This document shows positions 19,399-33,918 of a stretch of 34,104 nt of DNA, piece by piece. Under the pieces are notes generated by a model. That model saw nothing but the letters and a program-made list of their open reading frames with translations, was not told the origin of the DNA and made no database searches. Source of the DNA: Synergistaceae bacterium (GTDB lineage Bacteria; Synergistota; Synergistia; Synergistales; Synergistaceae). A program made the position numbers and the translations under genes. Every line of letters begins with the position of its first letter. Positions within the stretch are counted from its first letter, which is position 1. The stretch covers positions 1 to 34,104 of the forward strand of contig JAUNJZ010000028.1 in the NCBI GenBank assembly GCA_030533085.1, in the 5' to 3' direction.

Positions 19399-20163
19399 TC
19401 AGCCCCAGGGCCAGGATATTTTTCTCCCGTCTTCGCCGCGCAGCGCTTTTTTTATCTCTTCAAAGGTCGGGGCTTCGAGCATCATTTTTGTGCAGTTGGC
19501 GCGGGAGATCGTATCAAGCGAATGTGAGTCGGAGGAGCGTATGAAGGGGCGTCCGGGGTAGCCGTCACGCCATTTCTGCGCTTCTTCGCTGTTCAGTCGG
19601 CGCGAGAGTTCGAAGCCGTCCGACGGGTAGTCGGGGGGCATCGGCCCCAGCGCCGCGGTGTATGAGAATGCGGGGCGGTCTACGTGCGCCAGTATCGCGA
19701 GGCCGCCCATTTGTTTTGTTTTTTCGACTATCTGGTCTACTTCATAGCCGCAGCCCTGTATCAGCAGCGTTTCTTCTTCTTTTATTATTTCGTTTTCAGC
19801 GTTTACCACTATCTGGTAGCCAAAGTGTTCGACGTCGTTTTTTATCGCCCTTATGCGCCGCCACAGCCATTCTTTATATTCAAGGGCGACGGCGTAGTCG
19901 GGGAATACGCAGAGTATATGAATGTCTTCCGCGCTCTGGGTCTCTATGCAGGGTAGGACGACGGGGGTTCCAGGCTTTTCGCCCGCCGCCGCCGCCCCCG
20001 CTATGCCCGGATAGTTTTCGCATGTGTTGTGATCCGCGACGCCGATTATGTCAATGCCGGCCTCTCTGGCCTTCTCCACTATTTCGGGCGCGCCCATTTC
20101 CAGCTCGCCGCATGGCGACAGGAGCGTATGAATATGCAGATCGACCCAGAAAGGCTTCAGCAA
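19399..20163 (-). CDS. PHP-domain metal-dependent phosphoesterase
   Basis: A 254-aa protein of the PHP superfamily (polymerase and histidinol phosphatase). Metal ligands visible are H10 and H12 (VDLHIHTLLSPCGE), D44-H45 (GVADHNTCEN) and a C-terminal SSDSHSLD. The middle has an ILAHVDRP block with another histidine. Such stand-alone PHP proteins hydrolyse phosphomono- or phosphodiesters, including nucleotides; the substrate here is unknown. It starts 4 bp after the small DRTGG gene and precedes radA by 9 bp. Its constant placement in this sensor operon suggests it may act on a signalling nucleotide or phosphoprotein, but this is only inference. Confidence 0.88.
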   Translation of the reverse strand: MLKPFWVDLHIHTLLSPCGELEMGAPEIVEKAREAGIDIIGVADHNTCENYPGIAGAAAAGEKPGTPVVLPCIETQSAEDIHILCVFPDYAVALEYKEWLWRRIRAIKNDVEHFGYQIVVNAENEIIKEEETLLIQGCGYEVDQIVEKTKQMGGLAILAHVDRPAFSYTAALGPMPPDYPSDGFELSRRLNSEEAQKWRDGYPGRPFIRSSDSHSLDTISRANCTKMMLEAPTFEEIKKALRGEDGRKISWPWG

Positions 20164-20167
20164 GGGG

Positions 20168-20503
20168 TCAGCCTTTCAGCCCAAGCGCAGCGAGTTTGGC
20201 GCAGACGGCGTAGATGCTGTCTGGAACGGAGACTATCGCTATATTTTCCGTTGTGCAGCGCTCTATCAGATCTTCCGGCGCTTTTCTTCCTGAGGCTATT
20301 ATTATCAGCGGCAGGTCTTTCAGCACCGCTACGGCCGCGACGTTGAGGTGTGCCTGTACCGTGACCCAGGCCGCCCCTTCGCGCGCAGTTCCCATGATGA
20401 AGCTCAGAAGGTCTCCGGCCGCCGCTTCCGTTATTTCTCTGCCGCCTATGCCGGGGCACTGTATCTCTCCGCCGAGCGCCTTACAGATTTCTGTTATTGT
20501 CAA
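20168..20503 (-). CDS. DRTGG-like domain protein (second copy)
   Basis: A 111-aa single-domain protein of the DRTGG group (PF07085-like), a domain also found in some phosphotransacetylases and CBS-domain proteins. The visible pattern is a DLLSFIMG segment, AWVTVQAHLNVAAVAVLKDLP, LIIIASGRKAPEDL and a SIYAVCAKL ending, parallel to the other small protein at 22275-22637. The domain's ligand is not known with certainty. It overlaps the hydrogenase-like gene by 4 bp (ATGA) and is followed 4 bp later by the PHP gene, so it is part of the operon. Paired DRTGG proteins around an HATPase and an iron-sulfur protein recur in anaerobes, as I recall. Confidence 0.8.
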   Translation of the reverse strand: MTITEICKALGGEIQCPGIGGREITEAAAGDLLSFIMGTAREGAAWVTVQAHLNVAAVAVLKDLPLIIIASGRKAPEDLIERCTTENIAIVSVPDSIYAVCAKLAALGLKG

Positions 20504-21816
20504 TTTGCTCCACCCTTCCTTTTTAATGTCTGAGGCTGCGATTCTGAAAGCACGACTATTTTATTCGCCAATGACGCGATACCTTCACGCAGTTTGAATA
20601 TGCAGTCCGTCACGGAGCCGTGGCCGCGCACTATCTCTTCCGCCATGGCCTGGCAGGAGGGGCGTCCGCAGGAGCCGCAGTCTATGTGAGGCAGTCCTGA
20701 ATATATTTCTTTCATCTGCTGTAGTTTGACCATGGCTTCCGCCACGTTGTCCGACAGCGGCAGGCGCGGGCGCGGCATGTACTCTTTGGAGATGGACCAG
20801 AAGTCCATCGCGTAGAGCTCTTCGACGCGGCGCAGGTCTTTCGGCTTTATCTCCCAGTCTGTCTTTATGTTGTTGAGTCTCAGGCTTGCGAGGAAGCGCG
20901 AATCCGCTGTGCCGATGCCGCCGACGCAGCCGGTGTCGCAGGTGCGGCACTCGATAAAGTCAACTGAGCGCAGCCGTCCCAGCTCCAGCTCTTGCAGGAC
21001 GTCTATTGTGTTTCTCATGCCGGAGACTGAGAGTATGGTAAGCTTTTTCTCGGAGAAGGCTTTTATATGCTTTGTTTCGCCGCCGCGGCGCGCCCACTCT
21101 ATCCAGCGGTTGTTGCGTTCTTTCCGTCCTTCTCCGCTTCCGGTGCTGACGTTGCTGGCCATTATGCTGCGCGCGACGCGGCGCACTGTGACTACGCTGT
21201 CTATCGGCGAGCGTTCGCGCCCCTGCGGCTCGCGCACCATTGTTATCTTTGACGAGCAGGGGGCGAGCAGCGTTATCGGGGCGGAGCTGTTCGTCCTCAT
21301 GTGCCAGAGGTCGGCGGCCAGAGATATCGGAGATAGTATCGGCGTAACTCTGGAGATCAGCTCAGGGAAGCGCGACTGTATCAGCCGGAGCACGGAGGGG
21401 CAGTAGCTCGATATCATCGGAAGCGACTGCGGCGCGGTTCTGGCAAGGAGCTGGGCGGTCGCGGCCGCGCTGAGGTCGAAGGCCTCTTCAAGCTCGTCTA
21501 TCAGCACGTTGAAGTCAAGCGATGTAAGAACCTCTTCCAGAAGGGCGGGGTTCATGTAGTGGCTGAACTGTGTGAAGAATACCGGATCCGGTATCAGCGT
21601 CACTCTTGAGGATTCTTTGATACGGTTCCAGTCGTCTTCTTCTATTCCGAGCGCCTGTCTGTGGCATGAGCGGAGACATTCTCCGCAGTCGATGCACAGC
21701 TCTCCGATGATGCTTATTTCCCCGTCCACGACGCGAATGGCCTCTGTCGGACATACGCGGATGCAGTTGACACAGCCCTGGCAGGCTTCTTTGGAAATTT
21801 TAACGCTGTGGAACAT
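20500..21816 (-). CDS. [FeFe]-hydrogenase-like iron-sulfur sensor protein
   Basis: A 438-aa protein. The N-terminus has two [4Fe-4S] ferredoxin motifs (C12/15/18/22 and C41/44/47/51). The middle is an [FeFe]-hydrogenase H-domain: L1 is SSYCPS (C139), L2 is APCSSK (C187) and L3 is CRTCDTGCVGG (C293 and C297). These four cysteines match the ligands of the H-cluster cubane, but the catalytic proton-transfer Cys before C139 is Y138. The C-terminus holds a third cluster domain (DCGSCGRPSC...DC, PF04060-type). This mix fits the sensory, non-bidirectional class of [FeFe]-hydrogenases. No hydE/F/G maturase lies in the window. It sits between HATPase and DRTGG genes, suggesting redox or hydrogen sensing in the cytosol. 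Confidence 0.85.
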   Translation of the reverse strand: MFHSVKISKEACQGCVNCIRVCPTEAIRVVDGEISIIGELCIDCGECLRSCHRQALGIEEDDWNRIKESSRVTLIPDPVFFTQFSHYMNPALLEEVLTSLDFNVLIDELEEAFDLSAAATAQLLARTAPQSLPMISSYCPSVLRLIQSRFPELISRVTPILSPISLAADLWHMRTNSSAPITLLAPCSSKITMVREPQGRERSPIDSVVTVRRVARSIMASNVSTGSGEGRKERNNRWIEWARRGGETKHIKAFSEKKLTILSVSGMRNTIDVLQELELGRLRSVDFIECRTCDTGCVGGIGTADSRFLASLRLNNIKTDWEIKPKDLRRVEELYAMDFWSISKEYMPRPRLPLSDNVAEAMVKLQQMKEIYSGLPHIDCGSCGRPSCQAMAEEIVRGHGSVTDCIFKLREGIASLANKIVVLSESQPQTLKRKGGAN

Positions 21817-21836: not shown

Positions 21837-22271
21837 TTATTGCTGTTTATGGAAAAAGACCGTGCATTTCAGCGTGGTGCCTTTTCCCACTGTTGATTCT
21901 ATCTCAAAGAGGTCGCTGTTCCGTTTGATGTTCGGAAGTCCCATACCGGCTCCGAAGCCCATTTCGCGAGCCTGGTCGGTTGCGGTGGTATAGCCTTCGG
22001 TCATGGCCTTTTCGATGTCTGCTATTCCGGGGCCTTCGTCTTGGGCTATCAGCAGCACGCTGTCTTCGGATATTTCCGCCTTGAGCACTCCGCCGCCGGC
22101 ATGTATCACGAGGTTTATTTCCGCCTCGTATGTGATGATGGCGACCCTGCGGCAGACCTCGGAGCTGATTCCTATCATTTTGAGGGTGTTTTTAATGTTG
22201 TTTGAGGCCGCTCCCGCAACCATAAAATCGTTGCCCTCAATTCTGTATTCCAGACAGACAGGGGCGCTCAT
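21837..22271 (-). CDS. ATP-binding HATPase protein (anti-sigma factor type)
   Basis: A 144-aa GHKL ATPase domain without a histidine-phosphotransfer region. The N box is EAEINLVIHA (E49, N53, H57), the G1 box is DEGPGI (about 78-83) and the G2 box is GFGAGMGL (about 105-112). Small proteins of this form, such as SpoIIAB and RsbW, are anti-sigma factors or serine kinases. The operon has no sigma factor or STAS antagonist, so its partner is unknown, and the neighbouring DRTGG proteins are obvious candidates. It follows the first gene by 3 bp and precedes the hydrogenase-like gene by 20 bp. Confidence 0.88.
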   Translation of the reverse strand: MSAPVCLEYRIEGNDFMVAGAASNNIKNTLKMIGISSEVCRRVAIITYEAEINLVIHAGGGVLKAEISEDSVLLIAQDEGPGIADIEKAMTEGYTTATDQAREMGFGAGMGLPNIKRNSDLFEIESTVGKGTTLKCTVFFHKQQ

Positions 22272-22274
22272 TTA

Positions 22275-22637
22275 TCAGATCTCCTGAACGCTGTGGCTCG
22301 GTTTCATCCCCTTCGCAAAGAGCACTCCGCAGGCTTCAAACATGCTGTAACGCGACAGGAGAACAGGTATGCCGTTTTCTTTCGCAAGCTGAATTGTCTC
22401 TTCGAGGGGAACCTTGCCTCGGACGAAAACTATAGCAGGTATGTCCAGCATCTGCGCGGTGCGCACTATCTGGACATTTGTCAGACCGGTAATGAGAAGC
22501 GAGCCGGGCGTGCAGAAGGCAAGCACGTCGCTCATCAGGTCACAGGCGTAAGCGTTGTTGACCACAATATTATTCAGATCTTCTGTCGTTGAAACATTTT
22601 TAGCGTCAAGGAGCGACGCCACCTCTTGCAATGTCAT
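22275..22637 (-). CDS. DRTGG domain-containing protein (first copy)
   Basis: A 120-aa first gene of the operon. Its core reads SDVLAFCTPGSLLITGLTNVQ, then TAQMLDIPAIVFVRGKVP and a final YSMFEACGVLF. The pattern is shared with the smaller protein at 20168-20503, so the two are probable paralogues. The ATG has a CAGGAGG ribosome-binding site 7 nt upstream. The DRTGG domain has no firmly known ligand. As the first gene, next to an HATPase and an iron-sulfur sensor, it is likely part of a signal-transduction chain rather than an enzyme on its own. Confidence 0.82.
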   Translation of the reverse strand: MTLQEVASLLDAKNVSTTEDLNNIVVNNAYACDLMSDVLAFCTPGSLLITGLTNVQIVRTAQMLDIPAIVFVRGKVPLEETIQLAKENGIPVLLSRYSMFEACGVLFAKGMKPSHSVQEI

Positions 22638-28246: not shown

Positions 28247-28999
28247 CTAGTACAGTCCGGCCGTTTCGCCGCCGTCTATTCTGATGTCGGCCCCTGTGAT
28301 GTATTTCGCGTCGTCGGAGGCGAGGAAGGCGTAGAGCTTGCCTATCTCTTCCGGTTCGGCGTGGCGCTTCATCGGGATGCCTTCGTTTACCTTCGCGAGC
28401 ATTTCTTCCGTGTACTCAGCCTTCTGCATCGGGGTAAGGACGTAGCCGGGGCAGACGCAGTTGACGCGCACTGTCGGCGCAAGCTCCAGCGCCATGCTTT
28501 TTGTGAGCAGGATCACGCCGGCCTTTGAGGCGTTATAGTCCGTATACCAGCGATGTCCCTCAGTGCCGTTCGTCGAGGCGGTCATGAGTATGACTCCGCT
28601 TTTTTGCGCCATCATGCGGCGCGCGGCCTCGCGGGCGCAGAGGAACATGCCGTTGAGGTTGATGTCTATCACCTTTTTCCACTGTTCGTAGCTGATATCC
28701 ACGAAGTCGGAGCGGACGCTGATGCCGGCGTTTGAGATAAGGACGTCTATGCCGCCCTCCGTCTCGTCCATCTTTTTGAAAGCCTCGCGCACATCCTCTT
28801 CTTTGCTGACGTCGCCGACATAGCATCCGGCAAAGTCGGGATTTTCTTTCATCACCTGTTCCGCCGCCGCGCGGTTGTAATCGACGATGAAAACGCGCGC
28901 CCCCTGCCGCGCGAACAGCTGGGCGGCCGCCAGCCCGATGCCGCTCGCCGCTCCGGTGATCAGCACTCTTTTTCCTGCAAGCTCCTCATAACGTGTCAT
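28247..28999 (-). CDS. SDR-family NAD(P)-dependent oxidoreductase (second)
   Basis: A 250-aa classical short-chain dehydrogenase. The cofactor loop is TGAASGIG (residues 15-22), NAG lies at 90-92 and the catalytic triad is S142, Y155, K159 (YNASK). VDYN after the second strand has Asp in the position that favours NAD over NADP. The family oxidises secondary alcohols or hydroxy acids; the substrate is unknown. It is the last gene of the SDR-gcvPA-gcvPB-acoX-SDR run, 33 bp after the AcoX-like gene. No strong terminator is seen after it: a T7 tract at 28216-28210 has only a weak stem, so read-through into the NhaC leader is possible. Confidence 0.9.
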   Translation of the reverse strand: MTRYEELAGKRVLITGAASGIGLAAAQLFARQGARVFIVDYNRAAAEQVMKENPDFAGCYVGDVSKEEDVREAFKKMDETEGGIDVLISNAGISVRSDFVDISYEQWKKVIDINLNGMFLCAREAARRMMAQKSGVILMTASTNGTEGHRWYTDYNASKAGVILLTKSMALELAPTVRVNCVCPGYVLTPMQKAEYTEEMLAKVNEGIPMKRHAEPEEIGKLYAFLASDDAKYITGADIRIDGGETAGLY

Positions 29000-29032
29000 G
29001 ATGCTGTTATTCCCCCGTTTCTTTGTTTATTT

Positions 29033-30151
29033 TCAGGATATTTTCGCCATTATTTTCCGCCCGTGGCCGGTGACGACGGGAATGTAGCCCGCCAGCTCAC
29101 GGTCGAGCGCGCTGTCGCCCGTGTCGGCGATAAGGCTTCTGCCGAAAAGCTGCGCCATCTTTGCCGGCGTGGCGATGACTGTGATGTTTTCTTTCTCTAT
29201 CATCCGCAGCGCCTCAGGGCTGAGCTGCTGGTTTCCGCGCCCGAATATATGCCCCTGTCCGCCTATCGCCGTGATGATGAGCGCTCTCTTTTCCCTCTCG
29301 ACTGTGGAGAGTATTTTTTTTATCTCCGCCTCTGTCAGATCTTTTCCGATGAGTTTTCCGTCCATCACCGCGTCCACTCCGAGCAGCGTCCCGTCAAGGC
29401 CGAGCCTCTCCGTGAGCTGTCTGGTGGTCGAGCCGGAGCCTATGAGGTAGAGATGGCCGGGCTTCATCGAAAGCGCCATAAAGGCTGCCAGCTCCGCCGC
29501 TTCTTCAGCGGGGCCGCCGCTGCCGCCGGATTTGCGCTCCTGCATGAATTCGCGGTCGTCAGGTATTTTCATGCAGCCGTAGAGGCGCGCTCGGACGATG
29601 TTGTCGCGGAATGCCTCTTCGTCTATATCGACGACTTCCGCCGCCGCGAAGCGCCTGACTTCGCCGGAGATAAATTTGCCGACGAGCATTCCTGCAGCTT
29701 TCGGCCTTTTCGCGTAGACGCCGGAATGTATCTTGACTCCGGCCGGAATGCCGACGGCGGGAATACTTTCGCCGACGACGGAACAAAGGTCGCGCGCCGT
29801 TCCGTCGCCTCCGGCGAATACGATGAGGCTGACGCCGCGCTCCAGCATCATTTCAGCGGCGCGCCTTGTGTCCGCCGGCACAGTATGTTCCGACGGCTCG
29901 AAGAGCGATTCCGTCCGTAAGCTGTAAGATTTGAGCAAATCGGCTCCCATAGCGCCGGAGGGGCTGTAGAAAAGGCAATCAGCAGCTTTTCCCGCGAATT
30001 CCTTTACCGCCTCGTCGGCGCGCCCCGCGGCCACAGGCACTGCGCCAAGCTCAACGGCCCTGCGGAGCGTCTCTTCTCCGTCTGTTCCCTTGAGGGCCAC
30101 CTTGCCCCCCATTCCTGCCACAGGGTTGATCAAGAAGCCGATTTTCATCAT
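29033..30151 (-). CDS. AcoX/ATP-NAD kinase-like protein (COG3199)
   Basis: A 372-aa member of the ATP-NAD kinase superfamily in the subgroup that includes AcoX from acetoin operons. Key motifs are the N-terminal GFLINPVAGMGG, the central FAGGDGTARDL with GGDGT at 114-118, and the following GIPAGVKIHSGVYA. The C-terminal half has ITAIGGQGHIFGRGNQQLSP, also typical of the group. True NAD kinases are about 290 aa, so the extra length supports the AcoX branch. What AcoX phosphorylates is not settled; NAD or a diacylglycerol-like or sugar substrate have been considered. It sits 6 bp after gcvPB-like and 33 bp before an SDR, which suggests cofactor or intermediate phosphorylation for the same pathway. 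Confidence 0.87.
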   Translation of the reverse strand: MMKIGFLINPVAGMGGKVALKGTDGEETLRRAVELGAVPVAAGRADEAVKEFAGKAADCLFYSPSGAMGADLLKSYSLRTESLFEPSEHTVPADTRRAAEMMLERGVSLIVFAGGDGTARDLCSVVGESIPAVGIPAGVKIHSGVYAKRPKAAGMLVGKFISGEVRRFAAAEVVDIDEEAFRDNIVRARLYGCMKIPDDREFMQERKSGGSGGPAEEAAELAAFMALSMKPGHLYLIGSGSTTRQLTERLGLDGTLLGVDAVMDGKLIGKDLTEAEIKKILSTVEREKRALIITAIGGQGHIFGRGNQQLSPEALRMIEKENITVIATPAKMAQLFGRSLIADTGDSALDRELAGYIPVVTGHGRKIMAKIS

Positions 30152-30157
30152 TTTGCT

Positions 30158-31723
30158 TTACCGCGGCTCGAAATAGCCCTTGTACTTTTTATTGTAAGCG
30201 CGCCATGTGATGGCGTACTTCGCCGGGTCGTCAAAATAGTCGTGGTCGATATGGTGAACCGTGCTGTTTTCCGGCGCGTGTTTGACGGCCTCCGGCTCCT
30301 CGTAGCACATGCGCGATATCTCCGCCAGCACGCCGCAGTAATCGTCGATGTCCTGCTTTGAGTATGATTCGCTGGGCTCGATGGTGAACGGCTCGGGGAT
30401 GACCCACGGCTCGTGGCTAGACCAGTAATGCGTGCCGAAGTCGGCGATGCAGCGCTGTACGTCGGCGGTACCGAAGCCTGTATCCTCTTTGAGCTTCTGC
30501 CAGCTGTAGCGCGCCTGCTCTATGCGCGAAGGATGGTTCGGGAAGCTGAGGGAGGCTCCTTTTATCGCGAGTATCTTTTTCATGCAGTAGTTGTTGTTGA
30601 GAATGGCGACGCGGGAAACTTCGCGCAGCCCATCCGCCCCAAGCGCCATGATCCACGAGTATGCCTTCACGACCACAGGCGCGACTCCCCAGAAGGATTT
30701 GATCTTTCCGCAGGATTTCGGCAGGTCGAAGTCGAGATAGTAGCCCTTTTCCGGGGAATATTCGACGAGCGGGACCGGCATGTAGGGGCGCAGCTCCTTC
30801 TTCGCCGCGACAAGCCCTGTTGCCGGGCCGCCGCAGCCGTGCGGCGCGCCGAAGGTCTTGTGCAGGTTAAAGAATGACATGTCGAAGCCGGCCTCGACTG
30901 TGCGCGTGATTCCGAGCAGGCCGTTGGCGTTCGCCTGGTCGTAGCAGCAGAGGATTCCCTTTTCATGGGCAAGGCGAGTGAACTCTTTGATGCGGACGTT
31001 GAAAATGCCCGTGTCCTCCGGGTTGGTGAAGAATATAGCCGCCGTGCGGTCAGATATCGCCGCCTTGAAAGCCTCAAGGTCGGGATAGCCCTCCGCGTCC
31101 GGCTGTATGATCGTCACCTTGTAGCCCTTTGTTATCGGCACAGCGCAGTCGGCCGGATGCGAGAAGAGCGTCGTTATTATTTCGTCGCGCTTTTCTTCCT
31201 CACCCTTGTCGCGCCAGTAGGCGTGGACGATAGAGGCGAGAGCCAGCACGCCGTGCGAGCCGCCGCCCGGCTGCATCGAAAATACGTCGAGGCCGGATAT
31301 TTCTTTGAAGAGCCCGCCGGTCTTATAGAAAAGCTCCAATATCCCCTGGGCTGTTTCGTCAGGCTGGAGCGGGTGCATATCGGCGACCTTCGCCAGCCCG
31401 GCCAGACGGTCGTTGACCTTGGGGCTGTATTTCATCGTGCAGGTTCCCTGCCCTATGTCGATATTTCCGTCTACGCCGATATTTTCCTGCGAAAGATGAT
31501 TGTAATGGCGCACGAGCTGAAGCTGCGCGACTTCGGGGAGATTCGCCTTATCGCGGCGCAGCATCGCCTCCGGCAGGGAGGCCGTCGCCTCTTCAACGCT
31601 CACGCAGCCGCAGCAGGGGCCTGGCACCAGGACGGCGCGCGCCCCCGGCTCGCTTATTTCGTATATGATAGGCTCGTTCCACCTGGCCTGACGGAATTTT
31701 TTCATTCTTTCAAGATTATTCAT
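30158..31723 (-). CDS. GcvPB-like PLP decarboxylase subunit, divergent
   Basis: A 521-aa protein related to subunit 2 of glycine dehydrogenase (decarboxylating). The PLP lysine is K289 in NLHKTFGAPHGCGGP. General family features (ADMHPLQPDETAQGILEL; DLPKSCGKIKSFWG) remain. However, motifs that in true P-protein line the active site differ: DSAHGTNPASA is replaced by FSHPADCAVPI (187-197), LQPAAGAHGE by MQPGGGSHGV (150-159) and YDGANLNA by YDQANANG (261-268). The start has AAGGAGG 8 nt upstream, overlapping the end of gcvPA-like. No gcvH or gcvT occurs in the window. It may be a glycine decarboxylase, but a related activity on another amino acid is as likely. Confidence 0.85.
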   Translation of the reverse strand: MNNLERMKKFRQARWNEPIIYEISEPGARAVLVPGPCCGCVSVEEATASLPEAMLRRDKANLPEVAQLQLVRHYNHLSQENIGVDGNIDIGQGTCTMKYSPKVNDRLAGLAKVADMHPLQPDETAQGILELFYKTGGLFKEISGLDVFSMQPGGGSHGVLALASIVHAYWRDKGEEEKRDEIITTLFSHPADCAVPITKGYKVTIIQPDAEGYPDLEAFKAAISDRTAAIFFTNPEDTGIFNVRIKEFTRLAHEKGILCCYDQANANGLLGITRTVEAGFDMSFFNLHKTFGAPHGCGGPATGLVAAKKELRPYMPVPLVEYSPEKGYYLDFDLPKSCGKIKSFWGVAPVVVKAYSWIMALGADGLREVSRVAILNNNYCMKKILAIKGASLSFPNHPSRIEQARYSWQKLKEDTGFGTADVQRCIADFGTHYWSSHEPWVIPEPFTIEPSESYSKQDIDDYCGVLAEISRMCYEEPEAVKHAPENSTVHHIDHDYFDDPAKYAITWRAYNKKYKGYFEPR

Positions 31724-31737
31724 AAAAGCTGCCTCCT

Positions 31738-33123
31738 TTACGCCAGAATCTCGCCCAGCGCCGAAGCGAGAGCTTTGATATCGTCCGCCGAAGTCTGCTC
31801 CGTCACTGCCAGCAGCATACAGCCCTCAAGCTCCGGGAAGCTTCCGCCGAGGTCGTAGCCGCCGAGTATTCCCTTTTCGAGCAGCTTCCTGTTGATCTCC
31901 GAGACCTTTTTGCCGCTCGCCGAGAAATCCGCGACGACCTCCTGGAATGGAGTGCCTGAAAATCTGTCGAAGGAAATTCCCTTAACGCCGGAAAGAAGCT
32001 TTCTCAGGCACAGCTGCCGCTGTACGACGGCCTCGCCAAGCTCCTTCATCCCCTGCGGCCCCATAGCGGCAAGATAAACGCCGGCTGCGATGCCCCATAG
32101 GGCGGAGTGCGTTCCGACAAATTCCTTAGCGCCGTCGCGATTCGCGAATGAGGTGCGCTCCCAGAGAACGTCGCCGAAGCCCCATTCCCTCTCGCTCGTC
32201 GGCGCGACGCCGAAGAGGCGCGAGGGATATTCGTCCACAAAGCGCGGCTCATCCTTCGTCGCGATGAAGCCGGCTACTCCTCCGCCATAGTTCATGTGCA
32301 GGCCGAGCCCCTGAATATCGCCGCAGGCTATATCGGCGCCGTAGCGTGAGGGAGGCGTGAGCAGGCCGAGCGTGGACGGTTCGACCCAGGCTACCATCAG
32401 CGCCCCATTGGCGTGCGCCAGCTCCGCTATATCCTGAGCGCTCTCCTCGATAACGCCGAAGAAGTTGGGATTCATCACAAGCACTGCCGCAGCCTTATCG
32501 GTAAGCTTCTCCTTCAGACTGTCGAGACATATGCGCCCGCTCTTCGCGCTGTAATCCACATATGTGATGCTGATATCGGGCTGTAGATACGTCTGTACTG
32601 CGCGCAGCGTATCAGGATTGACATTGCGAGGGATAAGCACCTCTTTGCGGCGGGTAATGCGCGCCGCCATGCGGAGCGCCGTACCGACCGCCTGACTTCC
32701 GTCGTAATTCGGCACGTTGCAGACGTCCATATCGAGCAGCTCTGCCATCATCGACTGATATTCAAACATCGCGTGGAAACGCCCGTGATCCTCGTATGGC
32801 TCGCCGGCGTAGGCGGTCAGAAACTCCGAGCGGTTCACGACCTCGTCGACGACCGCCGGAACATAACGGTTATAGCAGCCCGCGCCGAGGAAGCAGACAA
32901 GCTCCCGCGCCGTTTTGTTCTTATCCAGCATCGAGCCGACATGGCGGAAAAGCCCCGCCTCGTCGCTGACAGCCTCCGGCAGATTCATCTTCTGCTTCAT
33001 CCGCATATCTTCGGGTATATCGGCGATCAGCTCGTCAATTGAAGCCGCTCCGATATATTCCAGCATCTCCCGCTGAACCCTTTCATCGGAATTTGGTATG
33101 TAAGGATACATCTTTGCTGACAT
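31738..33123 (-). CDS. GcvPA-like PLP decarboxylase subunit, divergent
   Basis: A 461-aa partner of the GcvPB-like subunit. The start MYPYIPNSDERVQREMLEYI, the FLGAGCY (78-84) and the FEYQ segment (120-123) are typical of subunit 1 of glycine dehydrogenase. Between them, canonical P-proteins have TAYTPYQPEISQGTLQ; this protein has TAYAGEPYEDHGRFHA (103-118), losing the Pro-Tyr-Gln-Pro-Glu and Gln-Gly core. The NASMYDGATAAAE-type motif is also altered (NVPNYDGSQAVGTA). The fold and partner match the family, but the active-site edge is remodelled. It has AGGAGG before its ATG, starts 12 bp after the first SDR and ends 14 bp before the gcvPB-like start. Confidence 0.85.
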   Translation of the reverse strand: MSAKMYPYIPNSDERVQREMLEYIGAASIDELIADIPEDMRMKQKMNLPEAVSDEAGLFRHVGSMLDKNKTARELVCFLGAGCYNRYVPAVVDEVVNRSEFLTAYAGEPYEDHGRFHAMFEYQSMMAELLDMDVCNVPNYDGSQAVGTALRMAARITRRKEVLIPRNVNPDTLRAVQTYLQPDISITYVDYSAKSGRICLDSLKEKLTDKAAAVLVMNPNFFGVIEESAQDIAELAHANGALMVAWVEPSTLGLLTPPSRYGADIACGDIQGLGLHMNYGGGVAGFIATKDEPRFVDEYPSRLFGVAPTSEREWGFGDVLWERTSFANRDGAKEFVGTHSALWGIAAGVYLAAMGPQGMKELGEAVVQRQLCLRKLLSGVKGISFDRFSGTPFQEVVADFSASGKKVSEINRKLLEKGILGGYDLGGSFPELEGCMLLAVTEQTSADDIKALASALGEILA

Positions 33124-33135
33124 TTCAGCCCCTCC

Positions 33136-33918
33136 TTATGCTATTCCGCCACCGTCAACGACAAGCGACGAGCCTGTCACCCACGGGGCCATATCGCTGC
33201 AAAGGAAAAATACGCACATCGCCACGTCCTTCGGCTCTCCGAGACGTGCCATCGGACGCTGGGCGCACTCTTCCTTATACTTTTCGTCATACACGCCGCC
33301 AAGCTGCTCGCACTCGCTCTTGAGCATCGGCGTATCTATATCGCCGGGGCAGACGCAGTTTATATTTATATTGTCCGGGCCGTGGTCAATCGCCATCGCG
33401 CGCGTCATATTCCAGACGCCGCCCTTCGCGGCGCAATAGGAAACGGCGTGATCTCCGCCTTTGAGCGACCAGCCGGAGCCGATATTTACGATTTTGCCGC
33501 CGCCGGCCTTTTTCATATAGGGAATGACATGCTTGCACATCAGGTAAACGCTTTTAAGCGTGACGTTTATCGCGAGATCCCAGTCGCTCTCGGGAAGCGT
33601 CTCGACCGTATGACGGCGCGCGACGCCGGCGCAGTTTACGAGAATATCTATCCTCGAACGCTCCGACGCGACCCTCTCTGCCAGCGCCTTGCAGTCGGCC
33701 TCCTTCGTGACGTTGCAGCGGATAAACTCAGCCTCTCCCCCCGCCTCTCGGATCTCAGCCTCGACCTTACGCGCCAGCTCCTCGTTGATGTCGGCGATGA
33801 CGACAGAAACCCCCGCGCTCGCGAAGAAGCGCGCGATTCCCGCGCCGATGCCGGAAGCCGCGCCGGTGATAACGGCGGTCTTACCCTTCATCCCGCAAAG
33901 TTTGTTCAAATCCAGCAT
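33136..33918 (-). CDS. SDR-family NAD(P)-dependent oxidoreductase (first)
   Basis: A 260-aa classical SDR. TGAASGIG at 18-25, NCAG at 95-98 and the triad S148, Y161, K165 (YCAAK) are all present. IADIN after the second strand has Asp where NAD-dependent enzymes have it. The C-terminal GDIDTPMLKSECEQL and VVDGGG end are usual. The substrate is unknown; closest families oxidise hydroxy acids, polyols or sugar acids. It is the first gene of the operon, with AGGAG upstream of the ATG and an excellent promoter about 80 bp before it. The two SDRs flanking the GcvP-like/AcoX genes differ in sequence, so they are not a recent duplication and probably act on different steps. Confidence 0.9.
   Translation of the reverse strand: MLDLNKLCGMKGKTAVITGAASGIGAGIARFFASAGVSVVIADINEELARKVEAEIREAGGEAEFIRCNVTKEADCKALAERVASERSRIDILVNCAGVARRHTVETLPESDWDLAINVTLKSVYLMCKHVIPYMKKAGGGKIVNIGSGWSLKGGDHAVSYCAAKGGVWNMTRAMAIDHGPDNININCVCPGDIDTPMLKSECEQLGGVYDEKYKEECAQRPMARLGEPKDVAMCVFFLCSDMAPWVTGSSLVVDGGGIA

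Follow-up and report, generated by a model that had tools for sequence, protein, structure and literature searches.

A Group D-derived [FeFe]-hydrogenase-like protein of Synergistota with an apparently rebuilt active-site pocket: a candidate cubane-only redox sensor

The sensor gene and its surroundings

The window (the whole stretch of DNA analyzed, 34,104 nucleotides from a Synergistaceae bacterium) includes a clean minus-strand open reading frame, 21816..20500, for a 438-amino-acid [FeFe]-hydrogenase-like protein, hereafter the sensor (Table 1). A forward-strand reading of the interval was ruled out by stops throughout. Using Pfam, we identified two N-terminal 4Fe-4S motifs, Fe_hyd_lg_C at residues 89-300 (86.1 bits, E 3.7e-24) and PF04060 FeS at residues 375-407 (43.9 bits), as the initial annotation of this DNA had described for the N-terminal and C-terminal clusters. 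The C-terminal motif (C380-x2-C383-x4-C388-x16-C405) is an exact match to CX2CX4CX16C, the C-terminal motif of group C/D sensors (PMC8163306). The AlphaFold2 model has a mean pLDDT of 92.6, and its best Foldseek matches are [FeFe]-hydrogenases (E down to 1.9e-16). The high confidence of the model and these matches in the PDB indicate that the predicted H-domain fold is intact.

In-frame TAG or TAA codons in orthologues from G112, G114 and G032 proved to be ordinary terminal stops rather than interruptions. In one Armatimonadetes MAG (L151) the sensor gene is broken into two open reading frames by a frameshift or an assembly error.

Table 1. Features of the sensor locus, with positions in the window
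Feature	Position	Strand	Evidence
DRTGG-domain protein, cassette gene 1	22275..22637	-	PF07085 29.9 bits; conserved position
RsbW/SpoIIAB-like GHKL ATPase	21837..22271	-	PF02518 31.3 bits; TIGR01925 49.4 bits, below family cut-off; conserved
[FeFe]-hydrogenase-like protein, Group D (M2e) lineage, 438 aa	20500..21816	-	Pfam, tree, AlphaFold2, Foldseek
D77 codon, at Ala of 'A-P-S/T' motif (about A230 of CpI)	21586..21588	-	
Y138 codon, site of proton-shuttle Cys299 (CpI) / A137 (TamHydS)	21403..21405	-	
Cubane ligand C139 codon (L1)	21400..21402	-	
Cubane ligand C187 codon (L2)	21256..21258	-	
R291 codon, site of CpI M497 by ADT ligand	20944..20946	-	
Cubane ligand C293 codon (L3)	20938..20940	-	
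Cubane ligand C297 codon (L3)	20926..20928	-	
Second DRTGG-like protein, meets sensor gene end	20168..20503	-	weak PF07085 18.3 bits; conserved position
PHP-type metallophosphoesterase	19399..20163	-	PF02811 20.5, NF045780 52.2 bits, both below cut-off; conserved position

The sensor gene is the third of a minus-strand cassette in the order DRTGG, RsbW/SpoIIAB-like ATPase, sensor, second DRTGG and PHP, adjacent genes overlapping slightly or lying no more than about 20 bases apart. This order is preserved in most of the Synergistota and Firmicutes loci examined, and in many Firmicutes loci the cassette is followed by another ATPase and HydABC-like genes. The conserved position supports the identities of the second DRTGG and PHP proteins, whose family matches fall below curated cut-offs. 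The neighbors are signaling-type proteins with no electron-transfer subunits among them, in agreement with the initial annotation. Judged by eye, a minus-strand cluster elsewhere in the window (28247-33918) may encode a pair of SDR dehydrogenases, a glycine decarboxylase P-protein split in two and an ATP-NAD kinase-like protein; an NhaC-like antiporter gene is close by.

Two other hydrogenase systems were identified in the source genome. One is a bifurcating-type HydABC on another contig (C17); the other is a group C sensor of the PAS type, encoded on contig C37 beside a phosphatase-like gene. In this group C sensor (L094, 3900-5630) the C299 position is occupied by Cys (TTCCPSV), and the gene that follows it resembles a SpoIIE/PP2C-type phosphatase. 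Many bifurcating-type HydA, including L093 (2780-4525), have TSCSPGW as L1, which in an ungapped alignment places Ser at the cubane-ligand position C300.

Group D placement and the active-site pocket

We placed the sensor using an 83-row tree (quick IQ-TREE, SH-aLRT support only), in which groups A, B and C were assigned from layout and motifs. The named homologues were fetched by peptide patterns from Synergistota sequences, and are a sample biased toward that pattern. Among the matches listed, the sensor belongs to a Synergistota clade (support 100, stem 0.88) whose sister group consists of the other Group D sequences (support 94; joint clan 100), including those of Thermoanaerobacter, the genus of the characterized TamHydS. 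Groups A, B and C are separate from this clan. Identity to non-Synergistota homologues is 32-37% among the matches listed. The Group D layout is present: two N-terminal [4Fe-4S] clusters, H-domain, C-terminal CX2CX4CX16C and no PAS domain. Membership of catalytic Group A/B was ruled out (best NCBIfam score 113 bits vs a cut-off of 450; apart in the tree), as was membership of Group C (no C-terminal PAS domain by Pfam; separate in the tree). We conclude from sequence comparison that the sensor belongs to a long-stemmed Synergistota sister clade of Group D (M2e, TamHydS-type) putative sensory [FeFe]-hydrogenases. The layout, the phylogeny and the conserved signaling cassette bear out the sensor-type assignment made initially, for which classification by phylogeny had been proposed as a check.

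The four cubane ligands (C139, C187, C293 and C297) and Y138 are at the residue numbers first given for them when read from the minus-strand open reading frame. Ligands and Tyr are kept across 77 Synergistota orthologues, so the pattern is far from chance. Tyr does occupy the place of the proton-shuttle Cys, as was first noticed; however, it is no private oddity of this protein but a fixed trait of the clade (77/77).

Pocket residues were tabulated for 47 Synergistota sequences from genomes of high completeness (27 with maturases, 20 without) and for 66 sequences from outside the phylum. Two further changes, D77 and R291, were found at positions that, like that of Y138, line the 2Fe site by motif match. 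Like the HydABC and group C systems described above, they go beyond the initial annotation. D77 is present in all 47 tabulated Synergistota sequences, whereas Ala is found in 64/65 outside (among the matches listed). Cys299 is replaced as in Group D, yet by Tyr: Y138 is present in 47/47, compared with Ala in 57, Ser in 7 and Tyr in 1 of 65 outside (among the matches listed). R291 is also found in 47/47, and Arg in only 1/66 outside (among the matches listed). The Y/D/R set is thus fixed in the 20 sequences from maturase-less genomes as well. Tyr and Arg occur together in one non-Synergistota sequence among the matches listed, L172 (Firmicutes bacterium UBA4795), a hint that the two go together and possibly a case of convergence. 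L172 has Gly at position 77, and its genome encodes HydF.

In CpI, C299 and M497 contact the azadithiolate bridgehead and M353 contacts the bridging CO (PMC10055695). The C299 position of sensory sequences is Ala in ~43%, Cys in 17%, Pro in ~10% and Ser in ~10%, and Tyr is not named in that text (PMC10055695). Proven [2Fe]-binding sensors vary at the M497/C299 positions (Ser/Ala in TmHydS, Leu/Ala in TamHydS). The M353 position is A185 in the sensor, not Ser/Thr, and is Ala or Ser in most of the clade; change of M353 to Ser/Thr is well conserved in M2e and is not a group-defining trait (PMC8163306).

Equivalences with TamHydS were taken via an alignment with the T. wiegelii sequence L138 (extracted numbering two behind): Y138 = A137, E247 = E252, E289 = E289, R244 = S249 and S265 = D265. 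E247 and E289, the counterparts of the first two positions in the proton relay proposed for Group D, are invariant in Synergistota. The relay residues S249 and D265 are replaced in the sensor by R244 and S265. From motif alignment, we take D77 and K190 to correspond to CpI A230 and K358, and presume that these two residues are near the cyanide ligands of the [2Fe] site; our literature search found no paper confirming K358/A230 contacts. Lys at the K358 position, K190 in the sensor, is present in 27/27 sequences from maturase-positive Synergistota genomes and in 66/66 outside (among the matches listed). In maturase-less genomes it is replaced by Arg or Met in 8/20 (Fisher 0.0004, with sequences treated as unrelated), in about two independent events or clades judging by tree position. 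Of the pocket positions that we looked at, only this Lys separates the maturase-positive from the maturase-less set.

Maturases, selection and [NiFe]-hydrogenase operons

The initial annotation had proposed a genome search for the three maturases, taking absence of all three to mean a plain cubane iron-sulfur protein. HydE, HydF and HydG are all present in the source genome, above family cut-offs, so this refuting condition does not apply. We then surveyed 111 Synergistota genomes at least 93% complete, 55 of which carry an orthologue of the sensor, using E<=1e-35 for HydE and for HydF (both loose) and E<=1e-60 for HydG. HydE and HydF are encoded in 29 of the 55 carriers; at these cut-offs all three maturases were undetected in the other 26. 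The latter include the one-contig genomes G030 and G032 (99% complete), the two-contig G182 and the three-contig G011, as well as G015. In 20 of the 26, no PF02906 protein other than the Tyr protein was found, and the same holds for G029, where it is present in two copies. In a control set of non-Synergistota carriers HydF was found in 40/50; judging by record titles, these include 11/11 named isolates, and all 10 misses are MAGs. Maturase absence differs between Synergistota and the control (Fisher p = 0.004, with genomes treated as independent though they are not).

HydG alone was not used as a criterion because at E<=1e-60 it also went undetected in some genomes that encode both HydE and HydF. 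These genomes are G108, G109, G111, G116-G119, G124, G126, G139, G140, G169 and G172, most of which encode a catalytic-type [FeFe] hydrogenase. The misses may reflect divergent HydG, assembly gaps or another source of CO/CN.

Group C homologues in maturase-less genomes were also seen to lack the Lys of the K358 position: L222 (G025) and L224 (G028) have PCIARK and L223 (G122) has PCIASK. Those seen in maturase-positive Synergistota genomes have PCISK or PCIAKK. Group C sensors of maturase-less genomes may have gone the same way as the Tyr clade.

For the sensor gene, dN/dS is 0.02-0.14 in maturase-less pairs vs 0.025-0.09 in maturase-positive pairs, with some pairs saturated, which points to strong purifying selection in maturase-less genomes. 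All cubane ligands, E247 and E289 are retained in 20/20 maturase-less sequences. Thus, 2Fe chemistry alone cannot explain why the "proton path" glutamates of Group D are conserved.

Most maturase-less genomes lack any catalytic [FeFe] hydrogenase and encode a HoxH-like [NiFe] enzyme instead. We identified a PF00374 match in all 26 maturase-less carriers; it has the two-block, HoxH-like pattern in 23, and in the other three it is only a short N-terminal block that may belong to a complex-I-like protein. In family f3 (L220), the cassette is directly upstream of, and on the same strand as, HydC-HisK-HydD-HydB-HydA-HydS-HydL-HydP (genes named by size, order and resemblance). HydA of this operon has 707 amino acids and no H-cluster. 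HydA of the bifurcating NiFe-HydABCSL of A. mobile also lacks an H-cluster (PMC8880783), and the f3 operon is of the same type. Cassette and [NiFe] operon are clustered likewise in f10 (L221, with an extra gene between PHP and the hydrogenase genes) and f9 (L225). In these three families the sensor thus accompanies the hydrogenase operon despite a different catalytic metal site. Counts of PF02906 would label Acetomicrobium and relatives as carriers of [FeFe]-hydrogenase, although the [NiFe] enzyme is used instead.

Inferred function and comparison with known systems

The sensor is probably a Group D-derived, [2Fe]-less ("cubane-only") redox sensor that acts via its DRTGG / RsbW-like ATPase / DRTGG / PHP cassette, and it probably reads the electron balance of the cell rather than hydrogen gas. 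We favor the [2Fe]-less reading because the A to D, C to Y and M to R changes are clade-wide, HydE, HydF and HydG are lacking in 26/55 carriers and the protein is conserved there. Of the initial proposal that the protein senses H2, CO or redox state, redox state is the better option; sensing of H2 or CO is weakened because it presupposes a loaded 2Fe subsite, against the comparative evidence. Other observations count against the [2Fe]-less reading. The source genome encodes all three maturases and K190 is kept in all 27 maturase-positive sequences, so that the source organism could form a holo-protein. Both E247 and E289 are retained, the M497 and C299 positions vary even in sensors proven to bind [2Fe], the D77/A230 and K190/K358 mapping depends on motif alignment, and a route of 2Fe assembly other than HydEFG is conceivable.

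Were HydEFG to load the 2Fe subsite, the protein would be a holo Group D H2 sensor in which Tyr138 serves as an alternative proton relay or as a hydrogen-bond partner of the azadithiolate, and H2 would be slowly turned over or sensed, as by TamHydS. We consider this rather unlikely. It draws on the maturases of the source genome, the invariant E247 and E289, the Lys retained in maturase-positive lineages, the Group D placement and the binding of [2Fe] by TamHydS without Cys299 (PMC8163306). However, Y/D/R and both glutamates are also kept where the known route makes no 2Fe (20/20 tabulated sequences), two relay residues are replaced, and the M353 position is Ala rather than the Ser/Thr typical of M2e. 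The lineages may instead be split, with a holo H2 sensor in the maturase-positive f1, f5 and f7 (including the source) and a secondarily cubane-only protein in maturase-less families. Such a split fits the Lys, which never varies in the maturase-positive set and whose losses are confined to the maturase-less one, but the three other pocket changes are equally fixed in both sets and Lys alone differs, so that we regard the split as improbable. It is very improbable that the maturases only seem absent because assemblies are incomplete or the maturases divergent, in which case nothing would follow for the cofactor. HydG is indeed missed in HydE/HydF-positive genomes (e.g., G109 and G124). Yet three maturases are jointly missing in 26 genomes, including one-contig assemblies, HydE and HydF were searched at a loose threshold, and most of these genomes have a HoxH-like [NiFe] enzyme and no catalytic [FeFe] hydrogenase.

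If the sensor is [2Fe]-less, descent from Group D (TamHydS-type) sensory [FeFe]-hydrogenases would have been followed in Synergistota by rebuilding of the 2Fe site through D77, Y138 and R291. The cofactors would most likely be the H-domain [4Fe-4S] cubane and the three accessory [4Fe-4S] clusters only, the 2Fe subsite presumably being absent also from the protein of the source organism. The Tyr, Asp and Arg side chains could occupy the vacated cavity. The two N-terminal clusters could accept electrons from reduced ferredoxin or a comparable donor and pass them to the H-domain cubane, whose change of state could be relayed to the co-encoded ATPase and on to the DRTGG and PHP proteins. The output of the cassette would tune hydrogenase-linked electron disposal.

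Taken singly, Group D sensors, the loss of C299 and H-domains that lack [2Fe] (as in Nar1, PMC12621388) are already known. In the open-access literature, we found no description of a bacterial clade of Group D descent that combines a rebuilt pocket, maturase-less hosts and clustering with bifurcating [NiFe] operons. We think it about as likely as not that a whole clade of bacterial pseudo-hydrogenase sensors, having lost the 2Fe site but retained the cubane, continues to control electron disposal linked to hydrogenases, with [FeFe] and bifurcating [NiFe] operons alike. Such a clade would read reduced ferredoxin rather than H2, would raise the question of whether H2 is truly what Group D sensors as a group respond to and would be a bacterial counterpart of Nar1. 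The Tyr clade addresses the question of what Group C/D "sensory" hydrogenases sense and how they signal. It keeps the whole cassette where the known route makes no 2Fe, and so lets the question be put directly: a cassette that functions in the absence of a 2Fe subsite would have redox state, and not H2, as its signal.

The closest characterized system is TamHydS of Thermoanaerobacter mathranii. Compared via the T. wiegelii sequence, the sensor shares with it two N-terminal clusters, H-domain, C-terminal CX2CX4CX16C without PAS, the E252/E289 equivalents and the DRTGG-HATPase-sensor-DRTGG-PHP cassette. Unlike TamHydS, the sensor has Tyr for A137, Asp for the Ala of 'APS', Arg for Leu at the M497 position, Ala for Ser at the M353 position and replacements of the S249/D265 relay, and in the source genome HydABC is encoded elsewhere than beside the cassette. 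H2 elicits no response from the C-terminal cluster of TamHydS (PMC13104023), which fits a signal other than H2 but is no proof of it. Group C sensors (TmHydS type) have a similar layout with a C-terminal cluster, but carry a PAS domain and are separate in the tree. The Acetomicrobium mobile NiFe-HydABCSL operon is of the type clustered with the cassette in f3, f9 and f10; in the accessible part of PMC8880783, however, its extra genes are given as HydD, HydP and HisK, not an upstream cassette.

Nar1 is an H-domain protein without [2Fe] (PMC12621388). Like eukaryotic Nar1/IOP1, the sensor has an H-domain with a [4Fe-4S] site, proposed here to lack 2Fe. As to the Nar1-like absence of HydE, HydF and HydG from the host, 26 of the 55 relatives lack them, but the source genome does not. 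The sensor also differs in its extra C-terminal cluster and in its place in a bacterial signaling cassette, whereas Nar1 serves Fe-S cluster assembly.
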